Shown: positions 5,003-50,593 of the stretch, one piece after another
How the letters are laid out: the number at the start of each line of letters is the position of its first letter
How positions within the stretch are numbered: the stretch's first letter is position 1
Assembly: GCA_947650915.1 (NCBI GenBank)
Contig: CANSWY010000001.1
Coordinates: forward strand, 1-64,000
Direction of reading: 5' to 3'
Source of the DNA: an uncultured Eggerthellaceae bacterium
GTDB lineage: Bacteria; Actinomycetota; Coriobacteriia; Coriobacteriales; Eggerthellaceae
Length of the DNA stretch: 64,000 bases
Made by a program: the position numbers and the translations under genes
The notes under the pieces: model-generated
What the model was told of the DNA's origin: nothing
Database searches by the model: none
The model's input: the letters and a program-made list of their open reading frames with translations, nothing else

Positions 5003-5446
5003 GCCGCACCTCCTCTCTTCGCCCCTACATCCGTTCCGGATGCAGGCAAGCATACCTGAGACGGGCGCTCGCCACCTCTAGAACGCGCAGAAGGATCGAC
5101 TCGAATCGCACAGAGCGGAAGGTGGCTGCGGATGTGCAGAAGGGACGTCCCAAATTGCACATAGGAACAGTCTCCCAGTGCTCATTCCCTTTTCCTATGT
5201 GCAATTTGGAACGTCCCTTCTGCACATCCGCTCTTCACAGGTTCACGGGGCATCCTGGGTGGAGAAGAGCATGCCTGAGCCGTGAGTGCGAATGCGCCGC
5301 GATATGCTCATGGCAATGGAGAGATTCCGGTTTCTTGTCGGATCGGTCAAGGTTCGGCGCTTTCGGCGTGCCAGACGGCCTCCATTGTTATATGGTATGG
5401 CGCTGATGAATTGAAAGCAGCATGCTCATGATTCGGAGGATGGACG
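5003..5446. other. Gene-free divergent intergenic region
   Basis: 444 bp between the divergent MFS and SurA-like genes. It holds repeat copy 2 (5131-5228) and a fragment CGAATCGCACAGAG at 5102-5115 that matches the copy-5 subtype of the repeat. The rest (5229-5430) has no reading frame I can support. CGGAGGATGGACG precedes the ATG at 5447. Confidence 0.7.
5131..5228 (+). repeat. 98-bp palindromic intergenic repeat, copy 2
   Basis: Same length and orientation as copy 1. Both arms carry a compensating change (GCAGAAGGG on the left, CCCTTCTGC on the right), so pairing of the arms is preserved. The loop keeps GTGCTCATTCCCTTTTCC. It lies between divergent genes, so it is not acting as a 3' terminator here. 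Confidence 0.9.
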
Positions 5447-13095: not shown

Positions 13096-13125
13096 GATGT
13101 GCAAAAGGGACGTCCCAAATTGCAC
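13096..13125 (+). repeat. Half-unit (left arm) of the palindromic repeat
   Basis: A 30-bp left arm, identical in its core to copy 1 (GTGCAAAAGGGACGTCCC), 44 bp upstream of full copy 3. The 14-bp spacer CCGTGAGGTTGCCT shares GGTTGCC with the spacer at copy 1. A further truncated arm core at 13065-13081 keeps the 44-bp register. Confidence 0.85.
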
Positions 13126-13139
13126 CCGTGAGGTTGCCT

Positions 13140-13237
13140 GATGTGCAAAAGGGACGTCCTAAATTGCACATAGGAACTGTCTTTCAGTGCTCATTCTCTT
13201 ATTCTATGTGCAATTTGGAACGTCCCTTTTGCACATC
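13140..13237 (+). repeat. 98-bp palindromic intergenic repeat, copy 3
   Basis: Full element in the same orientation as copies 1, 2, 4 and 6, with loop core AGTGCTCATTCTCTTATTC. The left arm has GGGACGTCCT where other copies have GGGACGTCCC. It lies between co-directional genes. Confidence 0.9.
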
Positions 13238-13253
13238 AGCAGCACCCCCCCTG

Positions 13254-13285
13254 CTCTGTGCGATCCGGAACGTCCCTTCCGCATC
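13254..13285 (+). repeat. Degenerate right-arm fragment of the palindromic repeat
   Basis: CTCTGTGCGATCCGGAACGT followed by CCCTTCCGCATC resembles the right arm of the repeat. Its CTCTGTG start matches the copy-5 subtype (43191-43290) better than the neighbouring copy 3. Confidence 0.6.
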
Positions 13286-13420
13286 CGTGGGGCAGACGCC
13301 GTTCGATGTACACCGTTCGGTGTATTTTGGCAAAGAGAAGATGACGGATGGGCAAGCTCGGCTTTCCATGACCTGCCAGATGATAGTGTCTGCGGCAGCA
13401 TCGTGAAAGGAGCAAGACCC

Positions 13421-14947
13421 ATGACTGACAACCCTTACGGACAGAACCCCCAGCCCGGAAGCGCTGGCGCCTCTGACCCCGGCGCGCCGCAACCTCAGCC
13501 ATCGGCCTATCATGCAGCCTATGGCGTGAGCCCTGAGGCGCCCGTTGCGGATGCCCAGGCCACGCAGCCTCTGCCCTCCGGCCAGCCCTATGCGAACGCT
13601 TCGGCCGCGCACGCGCCTGGCCACGCGGCGCAGACGGCTCCGTCCCATGCGGCCGCAAGCGCCGCTTTGGCACCTGCGAAGCCCTCGGGCGGGAAGACGT
13701 TCCTCATCGCGTTCGCGGGGGCGCTGGTGGCGTGCCTGCTGGCGTTCGGTGTGGCTGCCGCCTTGGGCGCCATGGGCCAGCCTGCTGCCAACGTGAACCT
13801 GGGCGCCAGCACGGCGGGAAGCGTCGAGGCCACTGAAGCGGAAGCGTCTCTGGCTGAAGCGGTGGCTGACAAGTGCCTGCCCTCCGTGGCTTCCATCACC
13901 GTCTATTCCACCTCTGCCGGCTCCTCCGGCAACCCCCTTTATGATTATTTCAACGGCGGTTCATCCAACAATGGCGGCGAAGTGGAGGCCGGTCTGGGTT
14001 CGGGCGTGGTGCTCTCCGAGGACGGGTATGTGATCACGAACAACCATGTGGTCTCCGGCGGCAGCCGTTTCGCCGTCACCATCGAAGGCGAGACCCATGA
14101 TGCTGACCTGGTGGGCACGGATGCCAGCTCTGATGTGGCCATCCTCAAAGTGAAGGACGTGACCGGTCTCACGCCCATCGAAGTGGCGGATTCCGACAAC
14201 ATCACCATCGGGGAATGGGTCATGTCCATCGGCAGCCCCTTCGGCTTGGAGCAGTCCGTGGCCACGGGCATCATCTCGGCCACCAGCCGCTCTCAGATCA
14301 TGGATGCTTCTGAGTATTCCAGCGGGTCGGGCGAGGTGGTCATCTACCCGAACCTGATCCAGACGGACGCCGCCATCAACCCGGGCAATTCCGGTGGCGC
14401 TCTGGTGGATGCGAACGGCCAGCTGGTGGGCATCAACACGTTGATCACCAGCTATTCGGGCAACTATTCCGGCGTGGGCTTCGCCATCCCGGCCAACTAT
14501 GCCATGGGGCTTGCCAAAGACATCATCTCTGGCAAGGAACCAACCCACGCGCAGCTGGGCGTGAGCCTCTCCACGGTGAACGCGTCCATCTCTGAGCGCT
14601 ACGGTTTCTCCTCTGATGAAGGCGCGTATGTGTCCGCTGTCACCGAAGGCAGCGGTGCGGCTGACGCGGGGATCCAGAAAGGCGACATCATCGTCGGGTT
14701 CGACGGGCAGACCGTCTCTTCCGCCAGCGATCTCATGATGGACGTGCGCACGAAAGCGCCGGGAGATGAGGTCACCATCACGGTGAACCGTGACGGCGAG
14801 ACGATGGACTTCCAGGTGACGCTGGGCTCTGACGAGGCCAGCCAGAAGGCGAAGGCCGAGCAACAGCAACATCAGCAACAGCAGCAACAGGACAGCGGGC
14901 GTTTCGGGTCCGGCATCTACGATCCCTACGGTCTGTTCGGCAACTGA
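13421..14947 (+). CDS. HtrA/DegP-like membrane serine protease
   Basis: 508 aa from the ATG at 13421 (GAAAGGAG 8 bases upstream). The in-frame extension upstream is only repeat sequence. An Ala/Pro/Gln-rich cytoplasmic tail (1-90) is followed by one TM (about 92-115). The trypsin-like domain has catalytic His209 (TNNHVV), Asp238 (SSDVAIL) and Ser324 (NPGNSGGAL). One PDZ domain (about 377-470, AGIQKGDIIVGFDG) precedes a poly-Gln tail. It degrades or refolds damaged exported proteins on the outer face of the membrane. Actinobacterial HtrA proteins share this tail-TM-protease-PDZ layout. Confidence 0.93.
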   Translation: MTDNPYGQNPQPGSAGASDPGAPQPQPSAYHAAYGVSPEAPVADAQATQPLPSGQPYANASAAHAPGHAAQTAPSHAAASAALAPAKPSGGKTFLIAFAGALVACLLAFGVAAALGAMGQPAANVNLGASTAGSVEATEAEASLAEAVADKCLPSVASITVYSTSAGSSGNPLYDYFNGGSSNNGGEVEAGLGSGVVLSEDGYVITNNHVVSGGSRFAVTIEGETHDADLVGTDASSDVAILKVKDVTGLTPIEVADSDNITIGEWVMSIGSPFGLEQSVATGIISATSRSQIMDASEYSSGSGEVVIYPNLIQTDAAINPGNSGGALVDANGQLVGINTLITSYSGNYSGVGFAIPANYAMGLAKDIISGKEPTHAQLGVSLSTVNASISERYGFSSDEGAYVSAVTEGSGAADAGIQKGDIIVGFDGQTVSSASDLMMDVRTKAPGDEVTITVNRDGETMDFQVTLGSDEASQKAKAEQQQHQQQQQQDSGRFGSGIYDPYGLFGN

Positions 14948-16438: not shown

Positions 16439-17212
16439 GTGAACAAGCCGCTCTCCCAGATATTTCCGAACCTGCCGGATAGCCTGTCCTATGACGGGCT
16501 TGAAGAGGCGTGCATCCCGCAGCATATCGCCGTCATCATGGATGGCAACGGGCGTTGGGCCAAAAAGCGCATGATGAACCGCCTGAAGGGGCATCGCGCC
16601 GGGATAGAGGCGGTGCGCGAGACCATCCGCTGCGCATCTGATCTGGGCGTGTGCTATCTCACCATCTATTCCTTCTCAACGGAGAACTGGAAGCGTCCTG
16701 AAGACGAGGTGGACGGCCTCATGGATCTGTTCGCCAAGACCATGTTGGCAGAGGTGGACGGCCTTGATGCAGAAGGCGTGCGCGTCATGACCATCGGGGA
16801 CCTGTCCGTGCTGCCGGATGAGACACGGAAGGCGTTCGAGGCCGCCTGGGAGCAGACGAAGGACAACGAGGGCATGACGCTGGTGGTGGCGGTGAACTAC
16901 GGCAGCCGCGCGGAGATTGCACGAGCGGCGCGCCAGCTGGCGGCAGAGGCGGCCGATCCGGACTGCGGTCTCAGCGCTGAGGACGTCACGGAAGAGGCGG
17001 TGGCGCAGAGGCTCTTCACGGCCTCCGTCCCTGATCCTGAGGTGATCATCCGCACCAGCGGCGAGATGCGTTTGTCCAACTTCCTGCTCTGGCAATCCGC
17101 CTATGCGGAACTGGTCTGCACTGACGTGCTTTGGCCTGATTTCGACCGGTATGAACTGCTCCGCTGCTTGCTGGACTACCAGGGACGTTCGCGCCGGTTC
17201 GGGGGCGTCTGA
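16439..17212 (+). CDS. uppS: Isoprenyl transferase (undecaprenyl diphosphate synthase)
   Basis: 257 aa with a GTG start. The catalytic MDGNGRWAKKR block (Asp for Mg-diphosphate) is followed by GHRAGIEAVR, YSFSTENWKRP and EVIIRTSGEMRLSNFLLWQSAYAE (split here: RTSGEMRLSNFLLWQ), which are all UppS signatures. It makes the C55 lipid carrier for peptidoglycan and wall polymers. The frr stop is 13 bases upstream and the cdsA start is 2 bases downstream. Confidence 0.96.
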   Translation: MNKPLSQIFPNLPDSLSYDGLEEACIPQHIAVIMDGNGRWAKKRMMNRLKGHRAGIEAVRETIRCASDLGVCYLTIYSFSTENWKRPEDEVDGLMDLFAKTMLAEVDGLDAEGVRVMTIGDLSVLPDETRKAFEAAWEQTKDNEGMTLVVAVNYGSRAEIARAARQLAAEAADPDCGLSAEDVTEEAVAQRLFTASVPDPEVIIRTSGEMRLSNFLLWQSAYAELVCTDVLWPDFDRYELLRCLLDYQGRSRRFGGV

Positions 17213-17214
17213 GG

Positions 17215-18426
17215 ATGGCGGTGGAAAAGGAGAGTGCCCCGCAGGCCTCGGGTGCGGTCATGCATCTGGAAGAATTGTCCCAGGCCGGTCTCACCGCCAA
17301 GCAGATGGCAGCGCGTCGGCGCCTCCATCAGCAAACGGCGTTGCTGATCCAGCAAGACCGTGCGCGCAAATGCGCAGATGCGGCTTCATGCGCGAGTCCG
17401 TCTGAGGTTCTCAGCGCTGATGCCGGCCATGAGCCGGAGCTGGTCTTCTCTCCCGAAGACGCGCCCGATGGGCCGCCTTGGCGCTACGATCCCACTCCTC
17501 ATCAGCGCGCAGAGCGCGCGCAGAAGAAGGAGCGACGCGCCCATGCGCGCGAGAAGCTCAAGGACAGCGCTATCCAGAAGGCCCCTGAGAAGCTGCGGAA
17601 CCCATCGGATCTGCAGGTGCGGTTCAGGACGGGGCTCATCTACACCTTGGTCACCATCGTCTGCATGCTGGCGGGGGATTACCCCACCATGGCGTATTTC
17701 ATGGTGGTGGCGGGCATCTGTGCGGGAGAGTTCTTCTACATGCTGCGCTCTGACGCCAAGCTGCCGAATGAGGCGCTCGGCATCACCGGGGCCGTGCTGT
17801 ACGTCCCGGCGCTGTACTTCTTCGGACTGGCGGGCGCCATGGTGGTCTCCATCGCGCTCCTGCTGGCGCTTTTGGTGTGGTATGTCTTCTGGCTCAAAGC
17901 GCGCGTGCAGGACGTGGGTGTGAGCTTCTTCGGCGCTGCCTACACCGGGCTTCTTTTGGGCGGTTTCATGCTCATTCGGGAAGCGTTGGGAGACCCTTGG
18001 GGCGGCATCGCGCTCCTGGTGTTGTTCTTGAGCGTCTGGGCCAATGATGCGTTCGCGTATCTGATCGGACGCCGTTTCGGACGGCACAAGCTGGCACCGC
18101 GCACCAGTCCGAAGAAGAGCTGGGAAGGGTTCTTCGCAGGCGTGGTGGGTTCATGCGTGTTCTGGGTGGTTCTCGCCTTCGTGCCGGGCATCCAGATGGG
18201 CGTCTGGCTGGCAATTGCATTCGGCGCCGTATGTGCCATGACGGAAGTGCTGGGAGACTTGGCGGAGAGTCGGATCAAGCGCAACTCCGGTTTCAAGGAT
18301 TCAGGCACCATGATGCCAGGGCACGGAGGACTGTTGGACCGCTGCGATTCGCTCTTCATGGCTTCCATCACCTCTGCCATCTTGTTGCTGTTGGGAGGTT
18401 GCATTCCTTATGACGTCTTGCTCTGA
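17215..18426 (+). CDS. cdsA: Phosphatidate cytidylyltransferase with long N-terminal extension
   Basis: 403 aa, versus about 270 for the usual enzyme. Residues 1-135 form a charged, Ala/Arg/Lys-rich cytoplasmic region (for example RAQKKERRAHAREKLKD) with no recognised domain. About seven TM segments follow. The CdsA signature appears as GDLAESRIKRNSGFKDSG, then GHGGLLDRCDS, with SPKKSWEGFFAG before it. It converts phosphatidic acid plus CTP to CDP-diacylglycerol. It overlaps dxr by 17 bp. Confidence 0.94.
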   Translation: MAVEKESAPQASGAVMHLEELSQAGLTAKQMAARRRLHQQTALLIQQDRARKCADAASCASPSEVLSADAGHEPELVFSPEDAPDGPPWRYDPTPHQRAERAQKKERRAHAREKLKDSAIQKAPEKLRNPSDLQVRFRTGLIYTLVTIVCMLAGDYPTMAYFMVVAGICAGEFFYMLRSDAKLPNEALGITGAVLYVPALYFFGLAGAMVVSIALLLALLVWYVFWLKARVQDVGVSFFGAAYTGLLLGGFMLIREALGDPWGGIALLVLFLSVWANDAFAYLIGRRFGRHKLAPRTSPKKSWEGFFAGVVGSCVFWVVLAFVPGIQMGVWLAIAFGAVCAMTEVLGDLAESRIKRNSGFKDSGTMMPGHGGLLDRCDSLFMASITSAILLLLGGCIPYDVLL

Positions 18427-19540
18427 CGCAGCCGCATCATCTTCGTCCGCACCGCGCAAGATCGTGGTGCTGGGTTCCACCGGCTCCATCGGGCGGCAGA
18501 CGCTGGAAGTGGCCGCCATGCATCCCGACAAGCTGGAGGTGGTGGGGCTCTCATGCCATCGGAACACTGCGCTCATGGAAGAACAGGCGGCGCGCTTCGG
18601 CGTGCGCCATACGGCGGTGGGCGCAGAAGAGGCGCTGGAGCTGGTCCATCTGGACGAGGCTGAGGTGGTGGTGAATGCGCTGGTGGGGGCTGCGGGCCTC
18701 AGGGCCAGCGTTGAGACGCTCTCATTCGGACGTGTGCTGGCATTGGCGAACAAAGAGTCCCTCGTGGTGGGCGGCGACCTCATCATGCCGCTGGCAGATG
18801 CGCCAGGGCGCTTGATGCCCGTGGACTCCGAACACGGTGCCATCTACCAATGCCTGGTGGGGGAAGACGCGCGCGAGGTCAGCCGGTTGTGGGTGACGGC
18901 ATCGGGCGGTCCGTTCCGGGGCAAGACGCGCGAAGAGCTTGCGCGCGTGACGGCAGCGGATGCGCTGGCGCATCCCACATGGAACATGGGGCGCAAGATC
19001 ACCATTGATTCATCCACCCTCATGAACAAGGGTCTGGAGGTCATAGAGGCGCATCATCTCTTCCAAATGCCCTATGAGCGCATCGAGGTGCTGGTGCAGC
19101 CTCAGAGCGCCATCCATTCCATGGTGGAATTCACGGACGGTTCCGTGAAGGCGCATCTGGGCGCCACGGACATGCGCATCCCCATCCAGTACGCCCTCAG
19201 CTGGCCGGAGCGCTGGCCTTCTCCTGCGGAACATGTTGATTTTCGCACCATGGGTCCTTTAGGGTTGGGCGCGCCGGACACGGCTGCGTTCAGGTGCCTC
19301 GATCTTGCCATCTCTGCGGGGAAGACGGGTGGGACGATGCCCGCGGCCATGAATGCAGCGAATGAAGTGGCCGTTGCCGCGTTCCTTGAAGGTGTGTGCG
19401 GTTTCCTTGACATCGAGGGCACCATCCAGCATGTGATGGAGCATCACGCACCGCAAGAGGTGCGTTCCCTTGAACAGCTCGAAGCGGTGGATGCCGAAGC
19501 ACGGACGCGCGCTGAAGAGCATCTAGCGCGCGTCCGTTGA
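18410..19540 (+). CDS. dxr: 1-deoxy-D-xylulose 5-phosphate reductoisomerase
   Basis: 376 aa, slightly short against the usual 380-400. The NADPH fold starts IVVLGSTGSIGRQTLE, with LALANKESLVVGG, PVDSEHGAIYQCL (substrate/metal loop), TASGGPFRGKT and HPTWNMGRKITIDSSTLMNK (split: WNMGRKITIDSSTLMNK). The C-terminus has AANEVAVAAFL. It carries out the second step of the MEP isoprenoid pathway; ispG of the same pathway is at 29979. Only 12 bases separate its stop from the convergent surface operon. Confidence 0.96.
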   Translation: MTSCSDAAASSSSAPRKIVVLGSTGSIGRQTLEVAAMHPDKLEVVGLSCHRNTALMEEQAARFGVRHTAVGAEEALELVHLDEAEVVVNALVGAAGLRASVETLSFGRVLALANKESLVVGGDLIMPLADAPGRLMPVDSEHGAIYQCLVGEDAREVSRLWVTASGGPFRGKTREELARVTAADALAHPTWNMGRKITIDSSTLMNKGLEVIEAHHLFQMPYERIEVLVQPQSAIHSMVEFTDGSVKAHLGATDMRIPIQYALSWPERWPSPAEHVDFRTMGPLGLGAPDTAAFRCLDLAISAGKTGGTMPAAMNAANEVAVAAFLEGVCGFLDIEGTIQHVMEHHAPQEVRSLEQLEAVDAEARTRAEEHLARVR

Positions 19541-22500: not shown

Positions 22501-22708
22501 CTTCGTAAAGCGCTGCGTAGGGCTCTTCGATCGGGGCTTCCACAGGAGCCAAGGCGAGGTCGTTCGAGATGCGTGCCTGGTCCGCCAGCCACGCGAAAGC
22601 GAGGCCGGCGGCGAGCGCGAGCGAACCGATGGCGCATACGGCCGCCATCAGAGCAGCAGCGAAGGCGGCCTGTTCAGCCGGGGCGGTTCTGTGCGTGGCT
22701 GCATCCAT
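19553..22708 (-). CDS. BspA-like leucine-rich surface protein with SipW-type signal
   Basis: 1051 aa. The N-terminal hydrophobic segment (about 16-40) runs into AFAWLADQARISNDLALA, which resembles SipW-dependent signal peptides (A-F/W-x-x-D...N). The body has BspA/DUF285-type repeats: LDLSAWNISSLRRCSSMFRG, VDL-type blocks, FEGCSSLTSLDLS, LAECSSLERIDLSG. A second unit, YAALY-x-LLxFDRG-xVPE, occurs three times (about 62, 426 and 647), so the protein looks like three diverged modules. The C-terminal 120 residues are acidic, Pro/Gly/Asp-rich, with no LPXTG motif or TM. It is last in the surface operon, 17 bases after the TasA-like gene. AGGAG lies 7 bases before the ATG. Likely a surface adhesin (inference). 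Confidence 0.8.
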   Translation of the reverse strand: MDAATHRTAPAEQAAFAAALMAAVCAIGSLALAAGLAFAWLADQARISNDLALAPVEAPIEEPYAALYEDVDGTGTLLVFDRGDEVPESLAGRSLTASWRGMETGSEDFSRPGVLPWSGHTGSIARVACGRAAQEHPIQIFCLQNFFRDMTVLTCADVTGIAPSRPATQNASHPSKSLHSTFLGCASLERVIGLETWDVSEINDIGYLFCNCHSLRALDLTAWDPKNIELALCSFYACSSLVRLDITGWNMESCTRTWNMLAFCTSLSEIVGLETLRCPRLRDMDGMLAECSSLERIDLSGLDIPGNGALNTCMAVTDGCSSLRYLDLSGIRIDRSDQQSLYMYPRSPTLETVVLSNQIRTGRAPVPATPLGLGSNMESAGYWICEETGESFGQHALMKYVDSLYSYSDDVEKVTFHAFRGGWGDDDPYAAAYQKEDGNMLLIMDRGSVAPDVFEGLPLVLEVRDFTVDGEHGSAAWRSLPVSEARILADLKPATCRRWFYDMFGLVSLEGLEHLDMSACADVTEMFQFIGAKHLAVEGWKVRADAESLPRIFACCHRLLDLDLSQWTVDLELNLAQLDHLIELVVPSNMRLSRLDHCYNPTVVRFDDGYWYANGLGEPLHADEVRAAVNAAYGSGSVPVRYAHEKEDRSYAALYRGAAGDVLMFGRGLDVPETHRDGTLQASYRGLEEHERFNITWNDFKNGACPWTGFADSIIAVECDDAARMTPIRPYCMDRWFQNMGSLKEAAALEAGALDPVRVKSASWLFFSCTSLERVPSSFSTSFTDTLTDAMGMYGYCSTLTSLTPLDPASTGRLWDATQMFEGCSSLTSLDLSAWNISSLRRCSSMFRGCWALETLSLPDRFVAPERESALQLAFLECRSLRELDGSTWDLSGTTTLFHAFNECIALERISGAEQWDTGAVVTMNSAFRLCRALTLDCSGWNIGSVTDSDSFALGAPGVTSPFEAAAMMEEEPAEGPRADGPDSSDGIRADSPGEDAPVQDADQGGSPGTGPGQGTPGTDASEDPVEEQPPDPEEGGPESGEAPPLTQESA

Positions 22709-22725
22709 CGTCCGCTCCTCTCATC

Positions 22726-23373
22726 TCATGCGTTCGCGGTGACGCTCAGGCGCGCTTGCGCGTCGTAGGCGGTGCAGGCTTCCGTCGCGTTCGCGAAGCC
22801 TTCGGATTGGATGGCGTGGGCGGTGACGTCTATGGTCGTCTCAGAGATGCCCACGTCCTCGGTCAGATTCGCAAGGGTGACCGCATCGAAGACGCTCGGG
22901 GTCTTCGCTCCCGCTGCCAGTTCCGCATCGTAGACGTAGCGGTAGGTGCGGAACCCGTCGGCCAGCTGGGCCTCTCCGATCTGCTTCCAGCCGCTGTTCA
23001 CCGTGTAGGAGAACAGGTCGGCGTCGGTCAGCTCAGCTGCTGCTCCGTCCTTGATGGCGCCTCCCGAGAACACGGGCACTTTCACGTCGGCGGCCACATA
23101 GGCCGGCACGCTGCCCGTGTTCGCGATCGTGGGATCCTTCGCCACGGATTGGAGCGGCTTCAGGTCCTTGGCGGCAGCGGCTGAGAAAGACGGCTCTGTG
23201 AGCTCGATCTTCAGGTCCGTGTCGAGCGTGAATGGATTCTCGGCTGTCGCGATGCCGGTGAGGTAGGCTGCGGCCGCACCTGCACCGATCGTGCAGGCCA
23301 ACAACCCGCACGCGGCAGCGGCGCCGATCCTCTTCATGCTTCTTTCAGGTGCGGTTCCGGTCTGTTCGGACAT
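22726..23373 (-). CDS. TasA/camelysin-like SipW-dependent subunit
   Basis: 215 aa from the ATG at 23373 (AAAGGAA 6 bases upstream), a start inside the end of the signal peptidase gene (40-bp overlap). The hydrophobic segment GAAAACGLLACTIGAGAAAA is followed by YLTGIATAENPFTLDTDLKI, the TasA-family pattern (…A-Y-x-T-x-x-A-x-x-N-x-F-T). The mature region has KDPTIANTGSVPAYVAADV and KVPVFSGGAI, matching the beta-rich TasA fold. It is probably the major fibre or matrix subunit exported by the adjacent SipW-type peptidase (inference from the family). Confidence 0.8.
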   Translation of the reverse strand: MSEQTGTAPERSMKRIGAAAACGLLACTIGAGAAAAYLTGIATAENPFTLDTDLKIELTEPSFSAAAAKDLKPLQSVAKDPTIANTGSVPAYVAADVKVPVFSGGAIKDGAAAELTDADLFSYTVNSGWKQIGEAQLADGFRTYRYVYDAELAAGAKTPSVFDAVTLANLTEDVGISETTIDVTAHAIQSEGFANATEACTAYDAQARLSVTANA

Positions 23374-23903
23374 GCTGTTCCTTTCTCTTCTGGTCTTGTG
23401 GCGATGTTCTGTGGCGATGCGAACGAGAGCGCGGCGGCTGCCAGCGCCAATGCGATGGCCACGCCCGCGCAGGGCAGGCGATTCTCCTCCAGCCAAGCGA
23501 TGGACCAGCCTGCATAGGGCACGTGGGCGCAGACGACGCCGATGATGTCCTCGAAGGGGACGAGCCTGATGTCAGGTTCGTCGTTCGCGTCCCCTTTCGT
23601 TTGGATGAGCCCTCCTTCCTGATAGATGTCCTGCGTTCTATGCACACAGACGTTCTCGTCTGCATCGCCTATGCGGAAGGCGGCGACATCGCCGATCCTG
23701 AGGTCTTCGCCATGGATGCTCCCATCCACGATGGCCAGCGATCCGAGCGGGATGCCGGGAGCCATGGAGGATGATTTGACGATGTAGGTGCTGCAGCCGA
23801 ACAGGGTTGGGATGAATGTGAGCGCTCCCAGCATCAGGGCGGCTGCAGCCATCGTTGCGAGGGCGGCGTTGAGCGCCTGTGAAACGAACCGTTCCGCTCT
23901 CAT
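23334..23903 (-). CDS. sipW: SipW-type (ER-type) signal peptidase I
   Basis: 189 aa. An N-terminal TM (about 10-35) precedes the catalytic motif VKSSSMAPGIPLG, with nucleophile Ser46. The general base is a histidine, His88 (VCVHRTQDI), rather than the lysine of the common bacterial enzyme, and TKGDANDEPD carries the conserved Gly-Asp box. These are the marks of the SipW/archaeal/ER class. A second TM (about 145-165) follows. In known systems SipW processes TasA-like subunits. Its ATG overlaps the VaFE gene stop by 4 bp. Confidence 0.88.
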   Translation of the reverse strand: MRAERFVSQALNAALATMAAAALMLGALTFIPTLFGCSTYIVKSSSMAPGIPLGSLAIVDGSIHGEDLRIGDVAAFRIGDADENVCVHRTQDIYQEGGLIQTKGDANDEPDIRLVPFEDIIGVVCAHVPYAGWSIAWLEENRLPCAGVAIALALAAAALSFASPQNIATRPEEKGTACPNRPEPHLKEA

Positions 23904-26900
23904 CGCGCACCTCCTGTCCGCGCGCCGGTCGGCTCGCTTTGGCGTTCACGCCTCTTGTGCATCCAGATGGCCCAGGCCCCGCCCAGTGCTGCTGCGGCGC
24001 AGGCTGCGAGCGCGTGGGGCCACGGCGCATCGTCACCGGTCTGGGGGAGAGTGGTGAGCGATCGGGGTTCGCGGACCGGGCCAGAGTCCCCGATCCAAAT
24101 GGTCTGGCTCTCAGCGGCCGCGTCCTCATGCATGGCCACCACCTCTCCCTCGGCTGTCAGCCGCTCGAAGATGACGAGCCGCGCTCCATCAAGGCCAGAG
24201 GCATCCACATGGAAATCGAGGAAGGTGCTGCCCGACGAGCTTCCAGGTGCGAACTGCGCCGTTGCGCTCACCTTGTTGCCAGCGTGGTCCAGAAGTGGTT
24301 CAGCGGTGATGTGGCCGCCTTCTCCCTCGGTGGCGCGCATGACCGTTCCGAACAATGAATAGGTCTTGCCTGCCACCAGGTTCTCGTAGCGCACCTCATC
24401 GGTGATGGTGAGGTCGGCCTTCGCATCCGTGGCGTTCAGCCCGCTCTGCTCATCGAATGCGCTCGTGCTGATGCGCGGAGCGGCGATCCTCACGGTCTGG
24501 GCGTCGTTGTCCGGGCTGTCATGCACGACCAGCTCGCATCCGTCACGGAAAAGCGTCTCGTACACCACCAGTTCCGTGCCATCCGCCATGCTCGTCGGCG
24601 CGAAGGTGAAGGTCACGGAAGTGTTGCCTGTGTTGGAGAGCGGCGTGAACGGGACGGTGCAGGTGAGCGGCGTCCCTTCTTCGTCGAGGACGGCTTCCGC
24701 GCTGGGTGCGTCTTCGGTGCCCGTCTTGTGCATCAGCTGTCCGCGCAGCACGTATTCGGCGCCTTCTTCCAGGCCGCTGTAGGCCACAGCGTCCACGATC
24801 GTCACGGCATCCTGCGCGATGGCTTCCTTGCTATCCGTTGCAGCGTCTGTGGCATAGGTGTTGATGGCGGGTGCCACCACCTCGACGCTCTGTCCGTGGT
24901 CATCCAGCTCCTCATGGGATGCCACGATCTTGCCTGTGGCCGTTTCCATCACCTCTTCGAAGCAGACGAGCCGCTTTCCGAAGAGCGTGGAGGCATCGAA
25001 AGCGAACGATACCTCGCAGCTGCCCGAGGAGGACACCGGCGTGAACGTGAGTTCAGTGGTGATGGCCTCTCCGGCGGCGTCCGTCGCCTCTGAGGCGGTC
25101 TCGGCATCCATCAGGCGCCCGCAGATCCGGTATTCCGTGCCCGGCACCAGATTGCAGTAGTCGATTCGGTCGGTCACGCGGACATCGCGGTTCGGATAAA
25201 GATGCTTGGAGGCGTCATGGGCGCTGCGCGCTTGCGTGACGATGGCGGGAGGAGGCGTCACGCGGTCCTCTATGTCTCCCAAGGGGATGCTGAGGCCGTG
25301 GGCGGTGACGCTGATGCCTTCCATGCTGATGAGGTCCAGCCCTGCGTTCGAATCAGCGCGCAGCTCTGTCAGGGCGTAGGCGTCATAGGGGAGTGCTCCC
25401 AGCGCGTCGTCGGGCGCGGTCATGCTGCCATCCGGTGCAAGGCCGAACCAGATGCCGGCGTTCGGATCCAGTTGTGCGGAATCCACCGCTTCTTCCGGGA
25501 CGTCGGCTGACGCCATGGCCCAATCGTTCGCGTTCGCATCCTGGGTGTGCGCGTGCCACGCAGCGGAGGTGTTCACGATGCCGTTCTCGTCGGTCACCAG
25601 CACATGGCGCTCACCAGTGGTCAGGGATTCCAGGATGAAGGGGATGCGCGCCAAACGACTCTGATCGGTCTGGAGCACTTTGCGGAAATCCAGGTCTCCG
25701 CGCTTCACTTGATCGTGACAGGCGCTGATGCCGTCCAGCGTCACCATCTCGCCATCGCGGGTGATGCTGAACGTGCGCGCTTCCGTGTCGTTCGCCAAGT
25801 ATCCGGTTCCCGCAGCCACTTCTTGGATCTCATAGGTGCCGAAGGGGAGCGTCTCGGTCGACGTGCACGCGCTTCCGCCTTCGGAGACGATGCGGGCCAC
25901 CACTTCTCCCGGCGCGCGCATGACACCGTCCACGCAGACTGCCTGCGCGCTCACGTTGCGGATCTGGAACGCGGTGCCGTCAAGGGATGCTGCGCCCAAG
26001 GGATCGGTGAGGCCGCTCTCCGCATCCCGCTTCACGATGGTCACGCCACCGCGCATGATGTCCTCGGGCACGGTGCTCACCATCGTGTACGTGATGCTCT
26101 CAGCGGTGCCGGAGGCGGGAAGCGCGATCACGCGCAGACGAGAGTCGATGCGGTAGCCTTCAGGAGCGGACACTTCGCGGAGGGTGAGGGTTCCCAGTGG
26201 CAAACAGGGCGCTCCTGCCGTCGTGCGATAGAGCGCATCCCCTGAGACCAGGTGGTCCTCATCCAGCTTGATGCATCCGCCAGCATCCGTCGCGAAGCGC
26301 CAGATCCGGGCAGGGGTGCATCCCGCCGCGCTTCCCTCGTCCGTGAACAGCTCTTGATAATGGCGTGCTTCGAACACGGCGCCTTCCAGCACCCCGTCAC
26401 CTTGCGGGGTGGAGTTCGCGGTCACTGAATCGCATTTGCGGAGCAGCACCTCTGCTGCGTAGCTCTGGGGCGCATCGCTCACGGCCAGGGCGGATGTCTC
26501 TCCAGCACGCACGGTCACGGCATGTGCGGCGCTGTCATAGGTGAAGCCAGAACCCAAGGTGGACCCTGCGTTCTCGCGGATGTAGTAGGTGCCGTCCTTC
26601 AGGCGCTTGGAGGTGCCGCGTCCATCTGCTCCCAGCGTGATGGAGCAGACATGCGCGGTGCATGCAGCATCTGAGAACACATCGTATGTGATGCCCTCGA
26701 GCCGATAGTTCGGGTTGTTCGCACTCGTGTCTGGGACCGAAGATGATTTCACCACCTCTATGTCTCCGGACGGAAGTATCTCGAACTTGTAGATTCCCAC
26801 GCCGGGCTGGTTCGCGATGGAAGGGCCGACGAAGCCGATGACCACATAGGGTCGGGCTGCTTCAGTGTTGACGTCCAAGATGCGCAGTGCCATCCGTCCT

Positions 26901-28360
26901 TTGGAGCCGTCGGAGGGCATGATCCCAATGGGGTTCTTCACATGGCTGCATTGCAGACCGAGCTGCGTGTAATCGTGCCCGTAGTTGTAGGGGTTGGTGA
27001 TGGGCCACCTCTCTGAGTGGAAGGACTGGTCTTCCAGTTGGTAATCGCCGAAGTCGAAGGAGTAATTGAAGTAGTCACGGGATTCCTGGGTGCCTCCAGG
27101 GTTCACGACGAAAGTGCCCACATCGTGCGCTGAGACGCCGTTCCAATCCGCGCCGGAGGACCAAGCGAGGTATTCGTAGAGGCTGTTGGGGTCGCTCTTC
27201 CATGAGTAGCAGTACGCGCCCGTGTTCACGCAGGCGTGCCATGAGAGGTCAGGCGGGTTCGGCCACCAGTAATCGGCCTTGGTCATGAACTCTATCTTGC
27301 GTCCGGGCGTCAGCGTTTCCAGGTTCAAGCTGTCGAACACCACTTCCGGCACGTAGGCGAGGGATGAGGTGGAGGCAGCCTGCGCCGGTTCGGCGAACAG
27401 CTCCAGGAGCGACGGCGCATCGCAGCTCACATCCGCGCGCAGCACCGTTTGCGGAGATGCTGATATCTCCAGCATCCCTGTCGCGGTGTCCCAGACGGCG
27501 TTCTCTCCTTCGACGAGCTCCATCTCTTCATCGCTGCCGTTCAGGCGTACGTGGATGTCGGAGAGCGCAAGATGCCCCGCGGTCTCAGGCGTGGCGACGG
27601 GAATGGTGGTGGTCACATCAAAGGTGGAGGAAGAGATAGTTCGATCGCCCATCACCTTTACGCGCGGGTCTGCTGAACTGATGGAGACATCAGTGAGACA
27701 TGGATCGCTGTCCTCCAGTTCAGCAGGAATGAGGAGCTGCAGCTGGCATGCGAAGGGGATGTCTTGACCATCTTGTAGATAGAAGCTCTTAGGCACATAG
27801 GCGATGCCGCTCTCTGCATCGAATCGGCAGCCGTCCAGCACATCGCCTTCGTTGGTCATGAGAGCGAAGACATGGTCGGTCGCCGTGCCTGTTCCGTTCA
27901 GCGACGAGGGGGCCGCCAGCGCCACATAGAAGCCAGAATCGGGGCCGGGGTCCAGCAGGTCTGCGCTCGATGCGTATTGCCCCGCGATGATGGACATCCA
28001 GTCTTCACGCGCATAGATGGCATCCATCGTGCGATCGGGTCCTGCGATCGCGGCATCGAAGAGCGTGCTCTTGACGTAAAGGGTGTGCCCGCTGTCCTGG
28101 AACGCGGAGAGATCTTGCCCGAAGAGGCCTGCGATGAACGAGAGCGCAGGCGCCGGCTCATCCACCGGTGCAGCGACTTGATCCACTGCTCCTGCAAGGT
28201 GGTCGTTTCTCAGTTCATAGGCGAAGCGGTGTTCCGGGTCTTCCTCTTCAGGCGGCCTGTCGGCCCAAGCCTGGACGGGCGAGAGTGCCAGGCTGAGCGT
28301 GAGCGCTGCTTTCAGGATCGTGCTCCGTGCGCGTTGCGTTGCCGATGCTGTTCGTGCCAT
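23900..28360 (-). CDS. Giant VaFE-repeat LPQTG surface protein (SpaA/Cna-B domains)
   Basis: 1486 aa. The signal peptide ends near PVQAWA (about 33). A large N-terminal domain (about 35-560) is unlike anything I can name. Several Cna-B/SpaA-type beta domains follow, with isopeptide-type Lys motifs such as VTIVKRDAESG and DLDFRKVLQTD and partner Glu segments (TLREVSAPEGY, YEIQEVAAGTGY). Then come three VaFE repeats (about 1065-1425), recognised by KRLVCFEEV, TELVVYETL and ARLVIFERL. The wall-sorting signal LPQTG (1438-1442), a hydrophobic stretch and HKRRER end the protein. First gene of the surface operon; AAGGAGG precedes the ATG. A sortase must act on it, but none is in the window. Confidence 0.88.
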   Translation of the reverse strand: MARTASATQRARSTILKAALTLSLALSPVQAWADRPPEEEDPEHRFAYELRNDHLAGAVDQVAAPVDEPAPALSFIAGLFGQDLSAFQDSGHTLYVKSTLFDAAIAGPDRTMDAIYAREDWMSIIAGQYASSADLLDPGPDSGFYVALAAPSSLNGTGTATDHVFALMTNEGDVLDGCRFDAESGIAYVPKSFYLQDGQDIPFACQLQLLIPAELEDSDPCLTDVSISSADPRVKVMGDRTISSSTFDVTTTIPVATPETAGHLALSDIHVRLNGSDEEMELVEGENAVWDTATGMLEISASPQTVLRADVSCDAPSLLELFAEPAQAASTSSLAYVPEVVFDSLNLETLTPGRKIEFMTKADYWWPNPPDLSWHACVNTGAYCYSWKSDPNSLYEYLAWSSGADWNGVSAHDVGTFVVNPGGTQESRDYFNYSFDFGDYQLEDQSFHSERWPITNPYNYGHDYTQLGLQCSHVKNPIGIMPSDGSKGRMALRILDVNTEAARPYVVIGFVGPSIANQPGVGIYKFEILPSGDIEVVKSSSVPDTSANNPNYRLEGITYDVFSDAACTAHVCSITLGADGRGTSKRLKDGTYYIRENAGSTLGSGFTYDSAAHAVTVRAGETSALAVSDAPQSYAAEVLLRKCDSVTANSTPQGDGVLEGAVFEARHYQELFTDEGSAAGCTPARIWRFATDAGGCIKLDEDHLVSGDALYRTTAGAPCLPLGTLTLREVSAPEGYRIDSRLRVIALPASGTAESITYTMVSTVPEDIMRGGVTIVKRDAESGLTDPLGAASLDGTAFQIRNVSAQAVCVDGVMRAPGEVVARIVSEGGSACTSTETLPFGTYEIQEVAAGTGYLANDTEARTFSITRDGEMVTLDGISACHDQVKRGDLDFRKVLQTDQSRLARIPFILESLTTGERHVLVTDENGIVNTSAAWHAHTQDANANDWAMASADVPEEAVDSAQLDPNAGIWFGLAPDGSMTAPDDALGALPYDAYALTELRADSNAGLDLISMEGISVTAHGLSIPLGDIEDRVTPPPAIVTQARSAHDASKHLYPNRDVRVTDRIDYCNLVPGTEYRICGRLMDAETASEATDAAGEAITTELTFTPVSSSGSCEVSFAFDASTLFGKRLVCFEEVMETATGKIVASHEELDDHGQSVEVVAPAINTYATDAATDSKEAIAQDAVTIVDAVAYSGLEEGAEYVLRGQLMHKTGTEDAPSAEAVLDEEGTPLTCTVPFTPLSNTGNTSVTFTFAPTSMADGTELVVYETLFRDGCELVVHDSPDNDAQTVRIAAPRISTSAFDEQSGLNATDAKADLTITDEVRYENLVAGKTYSLFGTVMRATEGEGGHITAEPLLDHAGNKVSATAQFAPGSSSGSTFLDFHVDASGLDGARLVIFERLTAEGEVVAMHEDAAAESQTIWIGDSGPVREPRSLTTLPQTGDDAPWPHALAACAAAALGGAWAIWMHKRRERQSEPTGARTGGAR

Positions 28361-28636: not shown

Positions 28637-29743
28637 TTGGACATCCTGTTCATGGTCTTTTCCGCCGTCATCGCCATCGGTTTCATCGTGCTCATCCATG
28701 AAGGCGGCCATTACCTGGCCTCTCGGGCCTTCGGCGTCCGCGTGACCGAGTTCATGCTGGGTCTGCCCGGTCCTTCGGTGGGCTTCACGGCTGGAGGCAC
28801 GCGGTTCGGCGTGACAGCGGTTCCTCTTGGTGGATATGCGCGCGTGTGCGGCATGGAGGGCGGTGGGATAAGCCCTCATGCGCGCGGTGCATTGCGCGAG
28901 GCCTATGAGCGCGGCTCGGTCACCGAAGAAGAATTGGCGGATGCCCTGGGTATCACGGAAGAGGAGGCTTTCGAAGCGCTCGATCAACTGGCCGAATGGG
29001 GGTCGATCATCCGTCCGGAGCGCAAGGATGACCGCCAGGCCTGGAAGACGCCGGCCGTCGCGCCTTCCGCTCGGGCGCGCAAGCAGGCAAAGCGCCTGGG
29101 GATGCCGGCGCCGCTGCAACTGGAGGCGGGCATGCCGCGCCATGTTCCTGACTTGGACGCGTTCTATGAACGGGAGCTCTCTTGCCAGTACCGTTCGTTG
29201 CCGTTCTGGAAGCGCTCGGTCATCCTGCTGGCGGGCATCGGCGTGAACCTCGCGTTCGCGCTCATCGCCTTCGTGGTGGTGTATGCGGTCATCGGCGTTG
29301 ACTATGCCATCCCCTCCACGGGCGAGGTGCAGCACCTCACGCTCACGCCCTTGCAGGCCATCCAGGCGGGCATCGGAGCCATCGTGGCCACCTTCCAAGC
29401 CATCTTGGGGCTCTTCAATCCGGCCACGGCGGGGGAGGTGGTGTCGAACTCCTCCAGTGTGATCGGCATCGCGGTCATGTCCGCGGATTTCTTCGCGAAG
29501 GGCGTGGCTGACGCGCTCTTCTTCATGGCTGTCATCTCCATTTCCATCGGCCTCATGAACCTGCTCCCCATCCCGCCTTTGGATGGCGGCCGCTTCTTGG
29601 TGGAGATCATCCAGAAGGTCACGCGGCGCACCGTGCCTGCGCGCGTGATGGGCGCGGTCTCCATGGCGGGCATGGCGCTGTTCCTGTGCTTCTTCGTCTT
29701 CATGCTGAACCAGGACATCCAGCGCTTCATCCTCGGCGGCTGA
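28637..29743 (+). CDS. rseP: RseP-like site-2 protease without PDZ domain
   Basis: 368 aa. The TTG start is supported by GAAGGAGGG at the right distance. TM1 has the zinc motif HEGGH (His21, His25), and the distal motif NLLPIPPLDGG supplies the third ligand, so the active site is intact. The loop after FGVTAVPLGGYARVCGMEGG holds a roughly 100-residue insertion whose centre, VTEEELADALGITEEEAFEA, reads like a winged helix-turn-helix. No PDZ domain lies between TM2 (VILLAGIGVNLAFALIAFV) and the LDG helix. It cleaves membrane proteins within the bilayer; the target is unknown. Confidence 0.88.
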   Translation: MDILFMVFSAVIAIGFIVLIHEGGHYLASRAFGVRVTEFMLGLPGPSVGFTAGGTRFGVTAVPLGGYARVCGMEGGGISPHARGALREAYERGSVTEEELADALGITEEEAFEALDQLAEWGSIIRPERKDDRQAWKTPAVAPSARARKQAKRLGMPAPLQLEAGMPRHVPDLDAFYERELSCQYRSLPFWKRSVILLAGIGVNLAFALIAFVVVYAVIGVDYAIPSTGEVQHLTLTPLQAIQAGIGAIVATFQAILGLFNPATAGEVVSNSSSVIGIAVMSADFFAKGVADALFFMAVISISIGLMNLLPIPPLDGGRFLVEIIQKVTRRTVPARVMGAVSMAGMALFLCFFVFMLNQDIQRFILGG

Positions 29744-29755
29744 CCCTCGCTCCCC

Positions 29756-29784
29756 ATGTGCGAAAGGGACGTCCCAAATCGCAC
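29756..29784 (+). repeat. Half-unit (left arm) of the palindromic repeat
   Basis: A left arm with GTGCGAAAGGGACGTCCC, 13 bases after the rseP stop. Its GACGTCCC core is exactly 44 bp upstream of the core in full copy 4. Confidence 0.85.
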
Positions 29785-29798
29785 AGGCGGACATGCAA

Positions 29799-29896
29799 GA
29801 TGTGCGAAAGGGACGTCCCAAATTGCACATAGGATCAGCCATCCAGTGCTCATTCTCTATTCCTATGTGCGATTTGGAACGTCCCTTTTGCACATC
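29799..29896 (+). repeat. 98-bp palindromic intergenic repeat, copy 4
   Basis: Full element, same orientation as copies 1-3 and 6. Both arms have a G in the flank (GTGCGAAAGG left; GTGCGATTTGG right), and the loop core is CAGTGCTCATTCTCTATTCC. It lies between co-directional rseP and ispG, upstream of the candidate ispG promoter. Confidence 0.9.
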
Positions 29897-29934: not shown

Positions 29935-29978
29935 GGGCACCTGAACGCAGAGTGAAACGCAGCATGAAAGGCGCCTCC

Positions 29979-31046
29979 ATGACCGAATCTGCTCCGAATC
30001 AGCGCACGCGCACCGTCATCGTTGGGGGTGTGCCCGTGGGCGGCGGCGCGCCCGTGTCCGTGCAATCCATGCTCTGCGCGTCTGAGACGGATGCTGGCGC
30101 CAACATCGAACAGGTGAACCGTCTGGCTGAAGCGGGCTGTGAGATCGCGCGCATGGCGGTCCCCAAGCGTGAATCCTTGGCCGTGTTCTCGAAGGTGTGC
30201 GATGCAAGTCCCATCCCCATCGTGGCGGACATCCATTTCGATGCGAAATGCGCCATCGAAGCGGCCTGGCGCGGGGCCTCCGCCTTGCGCATCAACCCAG
30301 GCAACATCGGGGGCCTCTCTGAGACGGATCTGGTCATCGCGGCGGCGCGCGGGGCTGACATCCCCATCCGCATCGGCGTGAACGCCGGATCGCTCCAAAA
30401 GGACATCGCCAGCCGCGAAGACCTGACACTCCCGGAGAAGCTGGCACGGAGCGCGGTGGAATACGTGCGCTATTTCGAAGAAGTCCGGGGCTTCACGAAC
30501 ATCGTGGTCTCCGCGAAAGCCCATGACGTGATGACCACGGTGGAGACCTACCGCCTCTTGTCCCAGCAGATCCCGCAGGTGCCGCTGCATATCGGCGTCA
30601 CGGAGGCCGGCACGGCGCTGCAGGGGACGGTGAAGTCTTCCGTGGGGCTGGGGATGCTCTTGGCCGAGGGCATCGGGGACACGCTGCGCATGTCGCTCAC
30701 GGACGATCCGGTCCTGGAGGTGCGCGCGGGCTGGGCGCTCTTGTCCGCTCTGGGGATCCGCCAGCGCACGCCTGAGATCGTGAGCTGCCCCACGTGCGGG
30801 CGGTGCAAGGTGGATCTCATCTCCATCGCGAAAGATGTGGAGGAACGCCTGCGGACCGTGGAGAAGCCCATCAAGGTGGCCGTCATGGGATGCGTGGTGA
30901 ACGGCCCTGGGGAGGCGAAGGACGCTGATGTGGGCGTGGCGTGCGGGGAGGGCCAGGGAGCGGTGTTCGCTCATGGTAGAATCGTGCGCAAAGTTGATGA
31001 GGGCCGCATCATCGATGCCCTCATGAAAGAGGTAGAGGCCATCTGA
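29979..31046 (+). CDS. ispG: (E)-4-hydroxy-3-methylbut-2-enyl-diphosphate synthase
   Basis: 355 aa from the ATG at 29979 (AAAGG 7 bases upstream); GTG 29952 and ATG 29964 are in frame but lack good ribosome-binding sites. The TIM-barrel part has PVSVQSMLC, PIVADIHFDAKCAI and RINPGNIG. The iron-sulfur part has SCPTCGRCKVDL and VAVMGCVVNGPGEAKDADVG, with the [4Fe-4S] cysteines. It makes HMBPP in the MEP isoprenoid pathway; dxr of the same route is 10 kb upstream beyond the surface operon. Confidence 0.95.
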   Translation: MTESAPNQRTRTVIVGGVPVGGGAPVSVQSMLCASETDAGANIEQVNRLAEAGCEIARMAVPKRESLAVFSKVCDASPIPIVADIHFDAKCAIEAAWRGASALRINPGNIGGLSETDLVIAAARGADIPIRIGVNAGSLQKDIASREDLTLPEKLARSAVEYVRYFEEVRGFTNIVVSAKAHDVMTTVETYRLLSQQIPQVPLHIGVTEAGTALQGTVKSSVGLGMLLAEGIGDTLRMSLTDDPVLEVRAGWALLSALGIRQRTPEIVSCPTCGRCKVDLISIAKDVEERLRTVEKPIKVAVMGCVVNGPGEAKDADVGVACGEGQGAVFAHGRIVRKVDEGRIIDALMKEVEAI

Positions 31047-31100
31047 GCGGTGCTCCAGGCGCGCTCTCCCGGCCCTGAGAGATGAGGGAGATGAGCGCAC

Positions 31101-32855
31101 ATGGCGGATATCCTGCGCCTCAAGAATCTGTACGTTCCCACTTTGAAGGAAGATCCGGCTGACGCGGACATCGCCAGCCATCGGCTGCTTTTGCGCGCGG
31201 GCATGCTCCGCAAGACGGCCAGCGGCGTGTACACCTTCCTTCCGCTGGGTTTCCGCGTGCTCAAGAAGATCGAGGCCATCGTGCGCGAAGAGATGGATGC
31301 CACGGGCGCCTATGAGATCATGATGCCGGCGCTCCAGCCCTCTGAGCTCTGGTTGGAGAGCGGCCGCTGGGATGATTACGGGCCGGAGCTCATGCGCCTG
31401 TCGGATAGGCATGAGCGCGGCTTCTGCCTGGGGCCCACCCATGAAGAGCTCATCACCTCTCTGGTGCGCGATGAGCTGCGCAGCTACAAGCAGCTCCCGC
31501 TCACGCTGTATCAGATCCAAGTCAAGTTCCGTGACGAGATCCGCCCGCGCTTCGGACTTCTGCGCAGCCGCGAATTCATGATGAAGGACGCCTATTCCTT
31601 CCATGATTCGCAGGAGTCCCTGCAGAAGACCTATGACGACATGAGCGAAGCCTACGGCACCATCTGCGACCGCTGCGGGTTGGAATGGCGCGCGGTGGAA
31701 GCGGATTCCGGCCAGATCGGCGGCAAGGTCACCACGGAATTCATGGCGCTGGCCGAAAGCGGGGAAGCGGAGCTGGTCTATTGCGATTGCGGCTATTCGG
31801 CGAACACAGAGGCGGGCGAGTGCCGTCCGCATCCCACCGCCCATGACGTGGCAGAGCTCAAGCGCATCGAAACGCCTGAAGTGCACACCATCGAAGAGTT
31901 GGCGGCGTTTTTGGGCATCCCTGAGACTTCCACGGTGAAGGCCCTTTCCGGCAAGGATGCGGATGGCGGCCTGGTGGTGCTCTTCGTGCCGGGATGCCAT
32001 GAGCTGAATGAGATCAAGGCTGCGCGCGCGGTGGAGGGCTTCGAACTGCTGACGGATGAGGAGATGGAAGCCTTCGGGCTGCACAAGGGGTCCATGGGGC
32101 CGGTGGGCCTGCCTGAGGGCGCGCGCGTGGTGGCGGATTCGTCGCTCCAGGGCGTGCCGCATTGGGTTGTGGGCGCCAACGAGGACGGCTTCCATTACCT
32201 GGGCGCGGCCCCGGGCCGCGATTTCACGGTGGACGCATGGGCGGATCTCTGCGTGGTGGCCCCGGGCGATTCCTGTCCCGAATGCGGCTGTTCGCTCAAA
32301 GGCGCGCGCGGCATCGAGGTGAGCCAGGTGTTCCAGCTGGGCACCAAGTATTCTGAGAGCATGCATGCCACCTATCTTGATGCGGACGGCAAAGAGCAGC
32401 CGCTGGTCATGGGCTGCTATGGCGTGGGCGTCTCCCGCACGTTGGCCGCCATCGTGGAGCAGCACAACGACGAGGCGGGCATCAAGTGGCCGCTGGCCGT
32501 GGCACCGGCCCATGTCTGCGTGATTCCGCTGCAGGTGGGAGATGACCTGGTGCAGCCGAAGGCCGAAGAGATCGCGCGCGCTTGCCAGCAGCTCGGATTC
32601 GAAGTGGCCATCGATGATCGTGATGAACGCGCGGGCGTCAAGTTCGCTGATGCTGACTTGATCGGCTGGCCGCTGCAGATCATCGTGGGCAAGCGCGGGC
32701 TGGCTGAGGGCAAGGTGGAGCTCAAGCGCCGCCGCACCGGTGAGCGCAGCGAATTTTTGGTGGATGCGCTGCCGGAGCTTCTGGCGTTCGCGAACCGCAA
32801 GATGGGGGACATGACGAAAGGTGGCGTCACCATCTTCTCAGGCTTGTTCAGCTGA
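31101..32855 (+). CDS. proS: Prolyl-tRNA synthetase (bacterial type)
   Basis: 584 aa. The class II core has motif 1 around YTFLPLGFRVLKKIE, motif 2 FRDEIRPRFGLLRSREFMMKD (split: RPRFGLLRSREFMMKD) and motif 3 GCYGVGVSRTLAAIVEQ. Between motifs 2 and 3 lies the INS editing domain (about 230-400; GPVGLPEGARVVAD), so the enzyme can deacylate Ala-tRNA-Pro. The anticodon-binding domain has VAIDDRDERAGVKFADADLIG. It follows ispG, a known neighbour arrangement. Confidence 0.97.
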   Translation: MADILRLKNLYVPTLKEDPADADIASHRLLLRAGMLRKTASGVYTFLPLGFRVLKKIEAIVREEMDATGAYEIMMPALQPSELWLESGRWDDYGPELMRLSDRHERGFCLGPTHEELITSLVRDELRSYKQLPLTLYQIQVKFRDEIRPRFGLLRSREFMMKDAYSFHDSQESLQKTYDDMSEAYGTICDRCGLEWRAVEADSGQIGGKVTTEFMALAESGEAELVYCDCGYSANTEAGECRPHPTAHDVAELKRIETPEVHTIEELAAFLGIPETSTVKALSGKDADGGLVVLFVPGCHELNEIKAARAVEGFELLTDEEMEAFGLHKGSMGPVGLPEGARVVADSSLQGVPHWVVGANEDGFHYLGAAPGRDFTVDAWADLCVVAPGDSCPECGCSLKGARGIEVSQVFQLGTKYSESMHATYLDADGKEQPLVMGCYGVGVSRTLAAIVEQHNDEAGIKWPLAVAPAHVCVIPLQVGDDLVQPKAEEIARACQQLGFEVAIDDRDERAGVKFADADLIGWPLQIIVGKRGLAEGKVELKRRRTGERSEFLVDALPELLAFANRKMGDMTKGGVTIFSGLFS

Positions 32856-43190: not shown

Positions 43191-43290
43191 CAAGTGCAAA
43201 AGGGACGTGTCCCAAATCGCACAGAGGAATAGCGCGTCTCAGCAGGTTCTCTTCTCCTCTGTGCAATTTGGGACGTCCCTTTTGCACTTG
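43191..43290 (+). repeat. Palindromic intergenic repeat, copy 5 (divergent subtype)
   Basis: 100 bp, with arms starting CAAGTGCAAAAGG and ending CCTTTTGCACTTG. The left core is GGGACGTGTCCC (2 bp longer than other copies) and the right core GGGACGTCCC. The inner arm border is CAGAGG/CCTCTG instead of ATAGG/CCTAT, and the loop is unrelated to the other copies. A second subtype of the same family. Confidence 0.85.
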
Positions 43291-50495: not shown

Positions 50496-50593
50496 GATGT
50501 GCAAAAGGGACGTCCCAAATCGCACATAGGATCAGTCTTTCATTGCTCATTCTCTTTTCCTATGTGCAATTTGGAACGTCCCTTTTGCACATC
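50496..50593 (+). repeat. 98-bp palindromic intergenic repeat, copy 6
   Basis: Full element in the same orientation as copies 1-4; loop core CATTGCTCATTCTCTTTTCC. It lies 36 bases after the tsaBD fusion stop and 49 before the end of the convergent menG, so it could act as a bidirectional transcript end here. No half-unit precedes it. Confidence 0.9.

Follow-up and report, generated by a model that had tools for sequence, protein, structure and literature searches.

The window analysed here, a 64,000-nucleotide stretch from an uncultured Eggerthellaceae bacterium, encodes an RseP-like site-2 protease (S2P) that has no PDZ domain and carries a winged-helix insert in the loop between its first two transmembrane helices (TM1 and TM2), an anatomy that we regard as real and well supported. 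Comparison of homologues across the Coriobacteriia shows, as far as sequences can tell, that the PDZ domain was lost in the Eggerthellaceae lineage and that the winged helix predates this loss. Concerning function, we give a probability of roughly 0.5 to a reading in which the winged helix is a protein-docking module, so that trimming by an HtrA protease outside and docking inside would together select the substrates of the PDZ-less enzyme; the chief alternative is a relaxed housekeeping enzyme whose extra domain is a spacer. The gene and the parts of its product, with the basis of each assignment, are the following:

28637..29743, plus strand: rseP-like M50 site-2 protease, TTG start, 368 aa
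28643..28729, plus strand: TM1 (residues 3-31) with the catalytic HEGGH (21-25; 28697-28711); AlphaFold2 secondary structure, invariant H21, E22 and H25
28742..28846, plus strand: MRE-beta-like four-strand region (residues 36-70); model strands 36-41, 47-52, 55-60 and 66-70
28862..29035, plus strand: winged-helix domain in the TM1-TM2 loop (about residues 76-133); model, profiles and fold matches
29036..29191, plus strand: variable linker from the winged helix to TM2 (residues 134-185); its length differs between members and it splits the family matches
29204..29293, plus strand: TM2 (residues 190-219); model
29294..29347, plus strand: site of the lost PDZ, an 18-residue connection (residues 220-237); measured segment length, no PDZ match
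29348..29410, plus strand: helix 238-258, ahead of TM3; model, with the alignment position of the post-PDZ helix of other RseP proteins
29504..29590, plus strand: TM3 region with NLLPIPPLDGG (N308 to G318); model, invariant motif
29639..29728, plus strand: TM4 (residues 335-364); model

The reading frame is preceded by a Shine-Dalgarno-like AAGGAGGG, and the Pfam scan of its product gives a Peptidase_M50 match (PF02163, 2.8e-45, 154.8 bits) and no match to a PDZ, of which S2P group I has at least one. The catalytic HEGGH and PIPPLDGG had been described as intact in an earlier note on this DNA, and this holds: both the HEGGH and the longer NLLPIPPLDGG are invariant across 71 aligned sequences, providing the HExxH and the second motif, xxPxxxxDG with its Asp zinc ligand, that mark M50 site-2 proteases. 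By its sequence, then, the window protein belongs to the M50 site-2 proteases. The same genome encodes another, short M50 protein in a 244-codon frame (G000:C1:223856-224332; L002, L003).

TIGR00054, the NCBI RseP equivalog model, scores the window protein at 132.1 bits, below its cut-off of 147.55, and two more Eggerthellaceae proteins also stay below (141.9 and 138.0 bits), whereas three PDZ-bearing Coriobacteriia relatives pass with 177.5 to 203.5 bits. Since the other PDZ-less proteins also fall short, the shortfall is common to them and not peculiar to the window sequence. The gene order uppS-cdsA-dxr-rseP-ispG-proS is kept in the sampled Coriobacteriia, and this position, together with a place in the gene tree among Coriobacteriia RseP proteins, shows the window protein to correspond by synteny to the RseP that sister families have with a PDZ. 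In the window the neighbouring genes, and an HtrA gene discussed below, are arranged as follows:

13187..14947, plus strand: HtrA/DegS-like trypsin-PDZ protease, candidate site-1 protease; Pfam Trypsin_2 9.9e-33, PDZ_2 4.8e-17
16439..19540, plus strand: uppS, cdsA and dxr, conserved operon upstream of rseP
29952..32855, plus strand: ispG and proS, conserved operon downstream of rseP

Inside this otherwise conserved operon, between dxr and rseP, lies a block of surface-protein genes on the minus strand (19553-28360), which encodes a DUF285/LRR protein of 1051 aa, another protein of 256 aa, a SipW-like peptidase and an LPQTG-bearing adhesin of 1486 aa that has T-Q ester and SpaA domains. Pilin-like genes occupy this dxr-rseP site in one relative (L139), and in another (L135) dxr is moved and inverted. 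The window also contains 14 copies of a 29-30 bp repeat, TGTGCRAAAGGGACGTCCCAAATYGCACA, found in the rseP-ispG gap (29756-29894) and at 130-267, 5133-5226, 13098-13235, 43260-43288 and 50498-50591. In the typical arrangement one direct copy, or two at a spacing of 44 bp, is followed 65 bp further by an inverted copy. The 1.98 Mb genome contains the 17-bp core of the repeat 386 times and the reversed control sequence 0 times, which makes the repeat a highly abundant dispersed element; it extends into the starts of annotated-looking ORFs.

The AlphaFold2 model built from the 71-member alignment (pLDDT 89.4, pTM 0.85) places the protein structurally among RseP-type enzymes. Its best match, with the same core, is Bacillus subtilis RasP (9a6w, a model with EcsA; Z 28.5), which has a PDZ that the window protein is without. 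Aquifex aeolicus RseP (Z 27.5, 2.0 A over 252 residues) and Escherichia coli RseP (Z 27.4, 2.1 A over 253 residues), both of S2P group I, share with it the M50 core, the MRE-beta hairpin and the arrangement of transmembrane helices, but each has two PDZ domains in the periplasm and a short loop between TM1 and TM2, the loop in which the window protein, itself PDZ-less, holds a winged helix. The group III enzymes SpoIVFB and Methanocaldococcus jannaschii S2P are also PDZ-less, and their core superposes on the model with lower similarity (Z 9.5-11.0). Group III carries a CBS domain (PMC10202637), for which the Pfam scan of the 368-aa protein returned no match, and the gene order around the window protein is that of group I relatives. 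Superposition on E. coli RseP indicates that the TM1-TM2 loop, and the insert with it, likely faces the cytosol, as had been proposed earlier from the known topology. From what is known of the family, the loop would adjoin the MRE-beta hairpin that presents the transmembrane segment of the substrate; substrate presentation by MRE-beta has been described (PMC4597795).

The insert spans residues ~73-185, between the MRE-beta hairpin and TM2. Its modelled core consists of helices 82-92, 97-104 and 108-121 followed by a small wing, and the linker behind it contains two further helices, 145-153 and 173-182. The stretch that was first read as a helix-turn-helix (HTH), TEEELADALGITEEEAFEAL, corresponds to residues 96-115, where the model has helices 97-104 and 108-121 at pLDDT 94-96. 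When the insert is modelled alone (pLDDT 86.8), its top fold matches are winged-helix proteins, with FtsK gamma, Zalpha, ESCRT-II and MarR at Z about 8; Foldseek E-values are modest (best 7.6e-3), and among the matches listed winged-helix proteins dominate. Profile searches point the same way. Pfam finds TrmB in 29/71 members (best 5.7e-7) and MarR_2 in 12/71 (best 6.8e-7); the window protein itself has a MarR match below the Pfam gathering score (20.1 bits, or 22.9 for the insert alone, vs 24.6). The insert profile run against the PDB retrieves mostly winged-helix chains (DDRGK1, MarR, FtsK gamma, TFE, IclR). Across the 71-member alignment Leu118 is invariant, Trp121 is near-invariant and their flanks are conserved. 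The predicted structure thus has a three-helix HTH core plus a wing, as well as homologues of that fold, and we conclude from model and profiles that the insert is a winged helix, an assignment beyond chance. The earlier description of an insert of about 100 residues with a winged HTH is therefore borne out by model, profiles and fold matches alike: the HTH pattern holds in structure prediction, and no PDZ-like fold is predicted for the insert. That it might be a displaced PDZ is rejected, as model and profiles give a winged helix. We know of no MarR/TrmB, ESCRT-II or DDRGK1/UFL1 winged helix inside a site-2 protease, and in the literature searched, subscription papers lying outside it, we found no description of a winged helix in an S2P, nor of a Coriobacteriia S2P.

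A survey of the class separates the histories of the two domains. The protease was matched in 193 of 196 Coriobacteriia genomes; 39 Eggerthellaceae members align end to end with the window protein, while in other Coriobacteriia families the alignment is interrupted around residue 225-235, the site of a PDZ. When GTDB contigs were scanned with the full-length protein, only two close relatives came up, and the relative L004, also of the Eggerthellaceae, is 83% identical. A dedicated search of Eggerthellaceae genomes found the gene in 134/138 (the well-assembled genome G482 has no protease match), and in none of these 134 does the match break at the PDZ site; where matches are split, they break in the winged helix or the linker, with one case at an N-terminal position. 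Between TM2 and the next helix there are 10-11 residues in all 41 aligned Eggerthellaceae vs 83-107 in 44 other Coriobacteriia, which confirms the earlier statement that no PDZ lies between TM2 and TM3, where the window protein has only residues 220-237.

The winged helix, on the other hand, is present in all 71 aligned Coriobacteriia proteins. Pfam finds a PDZ in 30 of these, a number equal to that of the non-Eggerthellaceae members, and in RseP genes from further families of the order a PDZ match stands between both halves in 16/16. All 44 compared non-Eggerthellaceae Coriobacteriia combine winged helix and PDZ, on opposite sides of TM2. The RseP proteins of L046, L047 and L056 exemplify this layout, with the winged helix at the same place, the same operon and the PDZ segment of 83-107 residues retained (177-204 bits with TIGR00054, compared with 132-142 for the PDZ-less proteins). 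The earlier note had taken the insert to stand in for the PDZ, and in the window protein a winged helix and a missing PDZ are indeed seen together, as expected if the insert had replaced the PDZ in one event and taken over its sensing. The coexistence of both domains at two sites in the sister families speaks against such a swap, as does the survey, in which no basal Coriobacteriia lineage with PDZ and without insert was seen; we reject it as highly implausible.

In a tree of the M50 core the Eggerthellaceae form one clade (support 0.92), for which a single PDZ loss suffices; the class root in this gene tree has low support (0.34), and only the Eggerthellaceae clade is relied on here. As the insert is class-wide and coexists with the PDZ, its gain came first, and the PDZ was lost later and only in the Eggerthellaceae. 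Outside the class, none of 20 S2Ps from other actinobacterial classes matches the winged-helix profile better than E 0.3. Some of them have long TM1-TM2 loops of different make-up, suggesting that this loop accepts different domains in different lineages. One such protein (L094) shows, by eye only, a PDZ-like segment in the TM1-TM2 loop and another after TM2; the former, if real, would be a PDZ on the cytosolic side.

Protein-binding winged helices among the nearest matches of the insert are DDRGK1/UFL1, by sequence profile, and ESCRT-II, by fold; FtsK gamma, Zalpha and MarR, which bind nucleic acids, score at least as well as these, so the fold alone does not decide. The insert shares its fold with the MarR/TrmB, ESCRT-II and DDRGK1/UFL1 winged helices and departs from the DNA-binding members in its acidic helix 3, which has no Lys or Arg in 41/41 Eggerthellaceae and a net charge of -4 to -7. 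The whole domain averages -7.6 in this family; in the other Coriobacteriia families it is less extreme and still net negative on average. The MarR-type proteins of the same genome offer only two readable helices, with net charges of -2 and +3, too small a control. An acidic helix 3 without Lys or Arg argues for a protein partner and against DNA, and is no proof of protein binding. DNA binding by the winged helix is unlikely on these sequence features, which disfavours the DNA option that the earlier note had left beside a protein one. A cytosolic gate that binds DNA and couples proteolysis to chromosome or promoter could appeal to the fold itself, with MarR, TrmB and FtsK gamma among the best matches, and is nevertheless very improbable to us given the negative charge, in the Eggerthellaceae and in the other Coriobacteriia lineages. 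Gating by a protein-binding cytosolic domain is possible.

A further element is the HtrA gene, which in the window stands directly before pyrH-frr-uppS and whose start is probably near 13421; a genomic repeat overlaps the first codons of the ORF. An HtrA gene lies upstream of rseP, on the same strand and within about 21 kb, in 20 of 22 Eggerthellaceae genomes that have both on one contig. In 8 other members of the Coriobacteriia, the 5-7.6 kb ahead of uppS showed no such gene, and in the sole sister-family genome with both genes on the same contig (G002) HtrA lies about 450 kb from rseP. That PDZ loss and linkage to a PDZ-bearing HtrA go together suggests, from gene arrangement, a working pair, although both fall on the same single lineage and may coincide by chance.

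The PDZ of RseP has been described as a size filter that limits the access of bulky substrates, and E. coli RseP with a disrupted PDZ cuts RseA even when no site-1 cleavage has gone before (PMC10202637). With this filter gone, in the docking reading, access from outside would be limited by prior site-1 trimming, most likely by the linked PDZ-bearing HtrA, and access from inside by docking to the winged helix, which would bring either a substrate's cytosolic part or an adaptor next to the entrance of the active site. A second likely job would be the clearing of leftover signal peptides.

As to what the enzyme might cleave, the genome encodes two proteins with sigma-70 region 2, one a 520-codon frame regarded as the primary sigma and the other an ECF factor, and no classical zf-HC2 anti-sigma factor. 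The sole ECF sigma gene has a four-base overlap with its neighbour (the pair at L154:552-2755, on contig 11 of the same genome), which encodes a DUF4179 protein (1175-2755), 526 aa long with a short cytosolic part and one hydrophobic segment, that is, a single transmembrane helix; the DUF4179 match lies just under the Pfam cut-off (29.8 vs 30.1 bits). From its sequence this protein is likely an anti-sigma factor, and it is a plausible client of the protease, the best candidate that can be named. Docking would have a plausible client in the single-TM protein encoded beside the only ECF sigma factor.

The same inventory can be read in favour of a relaxed housekeeping protease that clears signal peptides and short membrane stubs, its PDZ lost neutrally and its winged helix a ligand-free spacer shielding the hairpin. 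One ECF sigma and no zf-HC2 anti-sigma would leave little room for the classical role, the PDZ was lost once and cleanly with the catalytic motifs kept, and the lengths of linker and domain vary between lineages. Yet a winged helix retained in every aligned Coriobacteriia member, with its Leu118, Trp121 and conserved flanks, exceeds the needs of a spacer, and it is in this very family that the operon has a PDZ-bearing HtrA linked to it; we consider this explanation somewhat unlikely. An S2P lineage gated from the cytosol, in which the winged helix would sense a partner and license cleavage, the PDZ filter having been discarded and its role passed to the operon-linked HtrA, seems to us rather unlikely.

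The role of the RseP PDZ, be it size filter, sensor or scaffold, has so far been argued from engineered deletions in E. coli. The Eggerthellaceae provide a natural PDZ deletion in an intact enzyme, next to sister families that keep the PDZ and have the same extra domain across the membrane, which makes the PDZ question testable by comparison. In addition, the class-wide winged helix marks the TM1-TM2 loop as a site for adding regulatory domains.
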